Origin: Candidatus Giovannonibacteria bacterium RIFCSPLOWO2_12_FULL_43_11c
Lineage (GTDB): Bacteria > Patescibacteriota > Minisyncoccia > JACPKW01 > UBA11713
Direction: 5' to 3'
Length of the DNA stretch: 46,471 nt
NCBI GenBank assembly: GCA_001780775.1
Contig: MFIO01000003.1
Span: forward strand, 1-46,471
Program-made: the position numbers and the translations under genes
Part shown: positions 23,101 through 36,300 of the stretch, piece by piece
Numbering within the stretch: position 1 is the first letter of the stretch
Layout of the letters: every line of letters begins with the position of its first letter
Notes under the pieces: model-generated
Told to the model about the DNA's origin: nothing
Databases searched by the model: none
What the model saw: the letters and a program-made list of their open reading frames with translations, nothing else

Positions 23101-23931
23101 CTATTCTATTCGTACGTCTTCAAAAGTCAAGCCCTGGCTTCCGAGAAGCTTTTCATTATAGTCGTAATCTTTTTTAATTAAGTCCGCTTCTTCCTTGAGA
23201 CCCGCTGCCTCGAGCGAAGCTATTAACGCAAGGGTGTCTTTGGGCAGACAATGCCCGCCGAAGCCACGATATCCTCCGAAATTTGGATCAAGATGAGAAT
23301 TTCCAATGCGGTGATCTGCCGCCATGGCTTGTCGAACATTATCGTAATTTGCTCCGAGTTTTTCCGCGAGACTCGCGATAACATTAACTAAATTAACTTT
23401 TCTCGCGTAGTGTACATTCGAAGCGTATTTAACAAGTTCCGCCTCCGTGGCTCCGATTTCTGATTTGAAAGGGGCATCCGGGAGAAGTGAGAGTATTAGC
23501 CCAGAGACATCCTCGCTTTCGGCCGTTGATCCGATAATCTGCCGGTTGGGCTTGATAAACTGCTCCCAATTAAATTTTGCATCGAGGAATTCGGGATTGA
23601 ATAATATTTTGTGCATCCGATATTTCTTTTGAAAATTTTCCGTGGTTCCGGGAGGAACGGTAGATTTGATCACTACTATTTTATTTTCCACCAATTTTTT
23701 AAATACGGATTCGAGCGCTGATAGATCCGACGATCCGTCCGAAGCCGGAGGAGTCGGCACGGATACAAAAACAATATCCGCTTGATTTATATCATCGCTA
23801 AAATTTTTTTTTGGATCCGTATCAAATAAAAAAAGACCTTCTTTGCGCTTGAGCCCCCTTATCTCCTCAAAATATCTGGCGACCGGCGCCCCCACCATCC
23901 CAATTCCAATTACTCCGATTTTTTGTTGCAT
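23101..23931 (-). CDS. UDP-glucose/GDP-mannose dehydrogenase family protein, short form
   Basis: GVIGIGMVGAPVARYFEE, KSTVPPGTTE, NPEFLDA, YGGYRGFGGHCLPKD-like FGGYRGFGGHCLPKDTLAL; 276 aa, C-terminal domain missing. Confidence 0.85.
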   Translation of the reverse strand: MQQKIGVIGIGMVGAPVARYFEEIRGLKRKEGLFLFDTDPKKNFSDDINQADIVFVSVPTPPASDGSSDLSALESVFKKLVENKIVVIKSTVPPGTTENFQKKYRMHKILFNPEFLDAKFNWEQFIKPNRQIIGSTAESEDVSGLILSLLPDAPFKSEIGATEAELVKYASNVHYARKVNLVNVIASLAEKLGANYDNVRQAMAADHRIGNSHLDPNFGGYRGFGGHCLPKDTLALIASLEAAGLKEEADLIKKDYDYNEKLLGSQGLTFEDVRIE

Positions 23932-33519: not shown

Positions 33520-35286
33520 ATGATGACACCAATAAAACAATTAGAAAGGAGGACGGGATTCAGGCGTAGAGAAGATCGGCGGCCGAGGCTCGAACCGCAA
33601 GTAAAGCAGATTGCTTCGAGCGGTTTAAATTTGCGATTCGTACCACTCGGCGGATGCGGCGAGGTTACGCGCTCCTGCTACGTCTATGAGTATAATGACG
33701 ATATCGTCATCGTCGATATGGGCCTGCAATTTCCGGAAGAAGATATGCCAGGAATCGATTATATAATTCCTAATATAGATTATCTGCGACCAAAAAAGAA
33801 AAATATACGCGGAATTATCGTTACTCACGGACACTTGGATCACATAGGCGCAATTCCTCACCTTTTAGAGCCGCTTGGCTCTCCAGTTGTCTACACAATG
33901 CCATTAACCAAGGGTCTGATCCTAAAACGACAAGAAGATTTTAGAAGTTCTCCGCGTCCAAAAATTGAACTCGTAGACGAAAATTCAAAATTGAAGTTAG
34001 GAAATTTTGACATTGAGTTTTTTCACGTAAACCACAACATCCCGAATTCATTGGGAATTGTGTTAAAAAGCCCGGCAGGTATTGCAGTTCACACCGGAGA
34101 TTGGAAATTTGACCACACCCCCGTAAACGAAAAGCCAGCAGATATAACAAGACTCAAAGAAATAGGATCCGAAGGCGTTATGCTGATGGTTTCCGACTCA
34201 ACGGGATCACAGAAATCCGGAAGAACAATTTCCGAAACAGAAATTCAAAGAAATTTGGAAGAAATATTTTTAAAGACTGGGGGGCGGCTTATTGCGGCGA
34301 CATTTTCTTCCTTATTAACCCGAGTTCAGCAATTAATCTGGCTTTCGGAAAAATATGGAAGAAAAGTGCTGATTGAAGGAAGTTCAATGAAATCAACCGT
34401 CGCAGTAGCCCAAGAGCTTGGATATCTAAAAGTTAAGGGCGGAACGATAATTGGAAAAGAAGAGCTTTCGCATGTCGCTTCAAAGAATCTCACAATAATT
34501 TGCACGGGAGCGCAGGGCGAAGACCGGGCCGCGCTTATGCGGATCGCAAACAATGAACATAAATATCTCCAGCTCGAGAAAGATGATTCAGTAATTTTCT
34601 CTTCGTCAGTTGTCCCGGGGAATGAAGCTTCAGTGCAAAGATTAAAGGATATCCTCTATAAAAAAGCGAAGAAAATTTATCACTCCGAGACGATGGATAT
34701 TCACGCCTCTGGGCACGCGCAAGGAGACGACCTCAAAGAAATGCTCGAAATAATCAATCCGAAATATTTCATTCCCATGCACGGAACATATTTTATGCTT
34801 AAACTGCACGCGGATATAGCAATAGAGTCAGGAATAAAAATCCCAAATATCGTAATAGCAGAAGACGGGGAGATAGTCGAGATGAATAAAAACCAGATCA
34901 AGAAATTAAACCAGAAAGTCCCAGTGAACCTTGTTATGGTAGACGGGCTTGGCGTCGGGGATGTTAAAGAAGTTGTGCTTCGCGACCGGCAGATGCTCGC
35001 GGAAGATTGAATTTTCGTCATTATCGCAGTAGTTGATTCACAAACCGGAAAAGTCAAAGGTTCGCCGGATATAATTTCGCGCGGATTCGTTTATCTTCGC
35101 GAATCAAGAGAGCTTCTCGCGCAAGCTCGTCACCTTATCAAAAAAGTGATTGAGGAATCATCCGCCAAGATGCATCCTATCAATTGGACATTTTTAAGGG
35201 ATGAGATAAGAGAAAGTTTGGGCAAATTCCTATTTCGCAAAACCGAACGAAGGCCAATGGTATTGCCAGTTATAATTGAGGTGTAG
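33520..35286 (+). CDS. rnj: Ribonuclease J interrupted by an in-frame TGA at 35008..35010
   Basis: RNase J metallo-beta-lactamase motifs (VTHGHLDHIGAIP, HTGDWKFDHTP, SGHAQGDDLKEML). Same frame continues after the TGA: IFVIIAVVDSQTGKVKGSPDIISRGFVYLRESRELL...RPMVLPVIIEV*. Confidence 0.92.
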
Positions 35287-35295
35287 AATAGAAAT

Positions 35296-36300
35296 ATGAC
35301 AGGCAAAACAAACCTGCCTGCCGGCAGGCAGGTCGCAGTAAGTGGGATTAAAGCATCCGGAGTTCTACACATCGGGAATTATATCGGGGCAATCGAACAA
35401 TTCGTTCGCCTGCAAAGTAAATACAAAATGTTTGTTTTTATTGCTGACCTTCACGCGATCACCGTCCCCCAAGACCCTAATGAGCTTCGGGAAAATACGT
35501 TAAATGTCGCAGCTTTGTATATCGCCTGCGGACTTGATCTTAAAAAAACGATTCTTTTTGTGCAATCGCATGTTCCGGCACATGTTGAATTGGGTTGGAT
35601 ATTAAATACACTTACGCCGTTGGGCGAACTTGAACGTATGACCCAGTTTAAAGACAAAAGCCAAGATAAAGGAGTTCTCGCGGGACTATTAAACTATCCG
35701 ACATTAATGGCCGCTGATATTCTTTTATACAGGCCTGACATTGTTCCAGTCGGGGAAGATCAAGTTCAGCATGTCGAGCTTACTCGAACTCTTGCGCGAA
35801 AATTTAACAGTCGCTTCGGCAGTACGTTCAAAGAACCAAAAGAGCTCTTGCGAAAAGAAGGCGCGAGAATCATGGCGATCGACAACCCAACAAAAAAAAT
35901 GTCTAAATCGGCGGGGTCGAATAATTACATAGCGCTGACCGATGAGCCGGATATAATCCGCAAAAAAATTAAAACAGCCGTGACTGATTCCGGATCGGAG
36001 ATTAAATACGACGTTAATAATAAACCGGGCATTTCGAATCTTCTTTCGATATATAGCGCGTTTTCGGGTGAATCGATCGCAAGCCTCGAGAAAAAATACG
36101 CCGGAAAAAATTATGGAACATTCAAATCAGATTTGGCAGAACTTTTAGTACAGAAACTCTCTCCCATTCAGGAAAAATATAAATCTCTTTTGAAAAACAA
36201 AAAATCTCTGATGAAAATTCTAGACGCCGGCGCAAAATCCGCCAACAAAGTTGCCGAAAAAACGATGGCCGTGGTCCACCAAAAAATAGGATTAATTTAA
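35296..36300 (+). CDS. trpS: Tryptophan--tRNA ligase
   Basis: SGIKASGVLHIGNYIGAIEQF (HIGN), KKMSKSAGSNNYIAL (KMSKS). Confidence 0.96.
   Translation: MTGKTNLPAGRQVAVSGIKASGVLHIGNYIGAIEQFVRLQSKYKMFVFIADLHAITVPQDPNELRENTLNVAALYIACGLDLKKTILFVQSHVPAHVELGWILNTLTPLGELERMTQFKDKSQDKGVLAGLLNYPTLMAADILLYRPDIVPVGEDQVQHVELTRTLARKFNSRFGSTFKEPKELLRKEGARIMAIDNPTKKMSKSAGSNNYIALTDEPDIIRKKIKTAVTDSGSEIKYDVNNKPGISNLLSIYSAFSGESIASLEKKYAGKNYGTFKSDLAELLVQKLSPIQEKYKSLLKNKKSLMKILDAGAKSANKVAEKTMAVVHQKIGLI
35312..35333. repeat. 22-bp perfect palindrome inside the trpS N-terminal coding region
   Basis: ACCTGCCTGCCGGCAGGCAGGT, translated in frame within NLPAGRQV. Confidence 0.95.

Follow-up and report, generated by a model that had tools for sequence, protein, structure and literature searches.

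An in-frame TGA at a conserved glycine of RNase J in a Giovannonibacteria genome is probably an isolated nonsense base

In several RNase Js, the C-terminal domain drives dimerization. Here we consider an RNase J gene (rnj) from Candidatus Giovannonibacteria bacterium RIFCSPLOWO2_12_FULL_43_11c. It has the full domain order of bacterial RNase J (RNase J1 or RnjA; TIGR00649, PDB 3zq4), including the C-terminal domain (PF17770), but that domain lies 3' of an in-frame TGA, which cuts off the 91 C-terminal residues. In Gracilibacteria and Absconditabacteria, UGA is established to encode glycine (NCBI table 25; PMC8629427), and here, too, the codon occupies a glycine position in the genome of a CPR bacterium. 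The locus also resembles the isolated nonsense bases that are found in MAG consensus sequences, and recent pseudogenes: there is a single stop, the frame is conserved and has not decayed, and TAG and TAA nonsense occurs elsewhere. Most likely, the TGA is of this kind: a lone nonsense base in a gene that is otherwise ordinary, rather than evidence for a novel genetic code.

The window that we analyzed is the whole stretch of 46,471 nucleotides from contig MFIO01000003.1, and rnj is at 33520..35286 on the + strand. The TGA (35008..35010, +) lies within GCG GAA GAT TGA ATT TTC (34999-35016). The frame is continuous across it, which rules out a frameshift instead of a substitution. After the TGA come 91 sense codons (35011..35283, +) and then a TAG (35284-35286). 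As encoded, the protein has 496 amino acids; with the TGA read through, the gene has 588 codons, and the product around the site is AED-X-IFVIIAVVDSQTGK, where X is the residue at the TGA. The 496 amino acids upstream are enough to be recognized as RNase J (TIGR00649, 479 bits, cut-off 400), and the core domains are complete 5' of the TGA (PF22505, PF00753, and PF07521; metallo-beta-lactamase, beta-CASP, RMMBL). The 91 amino acids downstream, on their own, match PF17770 (RNase_J_C) with E = 4e-23 and 82.8 bits, and they end exactly at the C-terminus of the family. A match of this kind excludes a chance origin of the downstream frame. The sequence-only reading, which had interpreted this frame as the conserved end of RNase J, was correct. 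The read-through protein also aligns along its whole conserved length to RNase J1 from B. subtilis (3zq4), which has glycine at the TGA site. The next gene 3' is an intact trpS (35296..36300, +; TIGR00233, 367.6 bits), 9 bases past the TAG of rnj.

We also searched the organism's own genome (G000; 796 kb in 35 contigs, 99% complete) for a second intact copy of RNase J and found none. The sole other match (G000:C8:4610-4912) is a short beta-CASP-type match with 37% identity.

Relatives of this bacterium do not share the TGA. RNase J is uninterrupted, and its C-terminal domain is kept, in all six of the family relatives that we compared. In the nearest relative in our comparison set (G002), the uninterrupted gene is 93% identical. 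Across 52 other RNase J loci, including those from the six family relatives, the residue that aligns to the TGA is always glycine, as had been expected from knowledge of the family. (These loci are from Giovannonibacteria, Sungbacteria, Doudnabacteria, and Firmicutes, with a few genomes represented by duplicate records.) The glycine codons are GGC in 28 cases, GGT in 11, GGG in 7, and GGA in 6. The sequence-only reading had proposed a one-base change from GGA to TGA; the glycine is well supported, but the GGA precursor is only assumed, as G002 has GGC. More broadly, we surveyed 387 genomes from the class, 368 of which had a strong match to RNase J. Among the best 150 matches listed, there is an internal TGA in the window and nowhere else. 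Another 2 of the 150 have a TAA, which from the length of the open frame versus the matched length is apparently at the edge of the match.

The region beyond the TGA remains under strong constraint and has not decayed. Relative to G002, the 91 codons 3' of the TGA have three amino acid differences, with dN = 0.019 and dS = 1.10, as compared to dN = 0.014 and dS = 2.0 for the 92 codons 5' of the TGA and dN = 0.034 and dS = 1.34 for residues 38-496; all of these dS values are near saturation and are rough. If the TGA is real and is not read through, then we estimate that its age is less than about 5% of the time since the split from G002. Since the downstream domain is conserved and undecayed, any truncation would be very young.

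UGA is a stop codon in this organism. We relied on RF2 and on tRNA content, which also serve to call UGA a stop in PMC8629427. RF2 is intact, without an internal stop (404 bits, cut-off 370). Looking for a tRNA-Gly(UCA) had been suggested as a check, and ARAGORN reads a UCA anticodon in none of the 43 tRNA genes of this 99% complete genome. The glycine tRNAs have the anticodons GCC, CCC, and UCC, and the tryptophan tRNA has CCA. Two expected tRNAs, tRNA-Ile(GAU) and tRNA-Ala(UGC), were not found among the 43 either, and they may be in an unassembled rRNA operon; tRNA-Ile(UAU) is present (L013). Given these other absences, the missing UCA tRNA is not conclusive by itself, and RF2 and stop usage decide the question. 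In stretches totalling 543 of the 796 kb, TGA terminates 149 of 578 non-overlapping ORFs, or about a quarter. For 75 TGA stops, the end of the G002 gene could be aligned, and in 72 of these cases the G002 gene terminates at the same place (with TGA in 56 cases, TAA in 12, and TAG in 4). Within the window, TGA had been reported to terminate ssb, htpX, an NDH-2-like gene, and a methyltransferase, and we confirmed these stops.

If UGA had been reassigned to glycine throughout the genome, as is known from two clades, Gracilibacteria and Absconditabacteria, then the presence of this codon in a CPR bacterium where glycine is conserved would be accounted for. But unlike the genomes that use table 25, this one has RF2, lacks tRNA-Gly(UCA), and terminates about a quarter of its genes with UGA, in register with its relatives. 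Also, there is just one clear mid-gene TGA, in rnj itself, among 98,511 aligned codons (328 genes with orthologs in G002), so the other in-frame TGAs that this code would leave, and which had also been suggested as a check, were not seen. On the basis of RF2, the tRNAs, and stop usage, we rejected genome-wide reassignment, which is refuted in practice. The sequence-only reading had already judged it unlikely. We found nothing in the literature on recoding in Giovannonibacteria.

Nonsense changes in this genome are specific neither to TGA nor to rnj. To survey the same 543 kb for in-frame stops, we used non-overlapping ORFs and a third-position filter, and we discarded by eye the rows that reflected short ORFs, starts that were too far upstream, or low-identity ends. 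Across the aligned codons, there are two clear mid-gene stops in G000: the TGA in rnj and a TAG in an ABC protein (C4:7778-7780; L162:7778). The TAG replaces the conserved glutamate of the ABC signature (LSGG-stop-LQRVAIARA), and the frame is intact on both sides. The corresponding codon encodes glutamate in both G002 and G006, and the interrupted protein reads as FtsE (TIGR02673, 273.8 bits, cut-off 264.85). In the reverse direction, G002 also has two mid-gene stops: ruvB is interrupted by a TAA, and a nucleotide-sugar dehydrogenase gene by a TGA. (These two stops are at L174:17223, − strand, and L145:15046, + strand.) The counterpart of the dehydrogenase is intact in the window (23101-23931). 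So each MAG has about two mid-gene nonsense changes per 98,000 aligned codons. We infer that this rate would require no more than about 1.5e-4 errors per base of consensus. A change from G to T at the first codon position fits all four stops, although the original codon is assumed in two of them. With uniform mutation, 24% of possible nonsense changes are by this route, so the pattern is suggestive (about 0.003, from four cases only). The nonsense bases in rnj, ftsE, and ruvB comprise all three stop codons and are spread over more than one MAG, as would be expected from scattered consensus errors or sporadic nonsense alleles but not from programmed recoding.

Could UGA be recoded just in rnj? 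With local readthrough, the gene would yield both a short RNase J and the full-length one. The frame past the TGA is intact and still constrained, and two isoforms would make sense, given that the TGA falls where the C-terminal domain begins. But the TGA is not present in any relative that we examined, and neither a suppressor tRNA nor tRNA-Sec was found in the organism's own genome. There is no hairpin 3' of the UGA (99% of shuffled sequences fold more strongly than these 60 nt), and readthrough would leave the TAG in ftsE unexplained. We consider local readthrough to be quite improbable, and we give similarly little credence to the more specific idea of a lineage-specific, regulated readthrough that makes both forms from one gene. 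As for selenocysteine, the match to the tRNA-Sec model (RF01852) comes from an ordinary tRNA-Ser, whose anticodon is UGA, and the model also matches in all 14 controls. No SECIS hairpin was found after the UGA when the 60-nt fold was compared to shuffled sequences, and the relatives' residue is glycine, not cysteine, which is contrary to selenocysteine insertion. We rejected this candidate. Translation can restart near stop codons, and the gene might be split, with the C-terminal domain made as a separate polypeptide by restarting past the TGA; the ATT directly 3' of the TGA is a possible rare start. This seems very unlikely: the frame has no ATG, GTG, or TTG close to the break, and the earliest such codon is the GTG in LIKKVIEE, more than 40 codons in. 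Starting there would leave out half of the domain, and the relatives carry a single uninterrupted gene. Overall, recoding is almost certainly not the cause of the TGA. A lone stop base in one MAG can mimic recoding, and here the look-alike was dismissed by considering tRNA content, release factors, stop usage, and relatives.

Instead, rnj is probably an ordinary RNase J gene with an isolated one-base nonsense change, which most likely arose because one base of the MAG consensus is incorrect. A GGA-like glycine codon (GGA being the assumed precursor) would have become TGA by a change at one base. The wrong base could stem from sequencing, from assembly, or from a minor strain variant that the assembler took up, in which case the living population would make normal 588-amino-acid RNase J. 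The sequence-only reading had listed base error, truncation, and local readthrough as options. Because we saw no sign of readthrough machinery or of conservation of the TGA, and other housekeeping genes of this MAG and of G002 contain TAG or TAA nonsense, we favor a base error or a recent nonsense mutation, and readthrough is improbable. A consensus error or minor variant is more likely than a fixed truncation, and we infer that the consensus is incorrect at this base, as opposed to recording a genuine recent mutation. What counts against an error is that the same picture is expected from a nonsense mutation that is real but very recent, and from an allele that is segregating.

If the mutation is real, then the cell would make a 496-amino-acid RNase J, which has the catalytic metallo-beta-lactamase/beta-CASP core and lacks the C-terminal domain, and this might be tolerated. 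The core domains are complete 5' of the TGA, and the 470-residue chains of solved archaeal-type RNase J structures match residues 26-443 only. RNase J from M. tuberculosis does not require its C-terminal domain for dimerization or activity and stays dimeric without it (PMC10119312), and S. epidermidis RNase J1 without the domain is a monomer with raised endonuclease activity (PMC7864078). These results favor a real truncation. In contrast, for B. subtilis and T. thermophilus, the domain is reported to be necessary for activity and oligomerization, according to work cited in PMC10119312, which disfavors it. By analogy with the characterized enzymes, a truncated RNase J that works in part is possible, so we keep a real mutation as a less probable explanation that still deserves substantial weight. 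It would have to be very young, as all six relatives have kept the domain and constraint on it is unrelaxed in this genome, and the nonsense in ftsE in the same MAG would demand a second tolerated loss. If the allele is real, then it would offer a natural test of whether a reduced CPR genome can do without the C-terminal domain of RNase J. In favor of a real mutation, the genome also encodes RNase Y. The RNase Y gene is apparently split over two contig ends: most of it is at C33:7-1332, and a possible N-terminal piece, which is a weak match (19 bits), is at C32:40105-40323.
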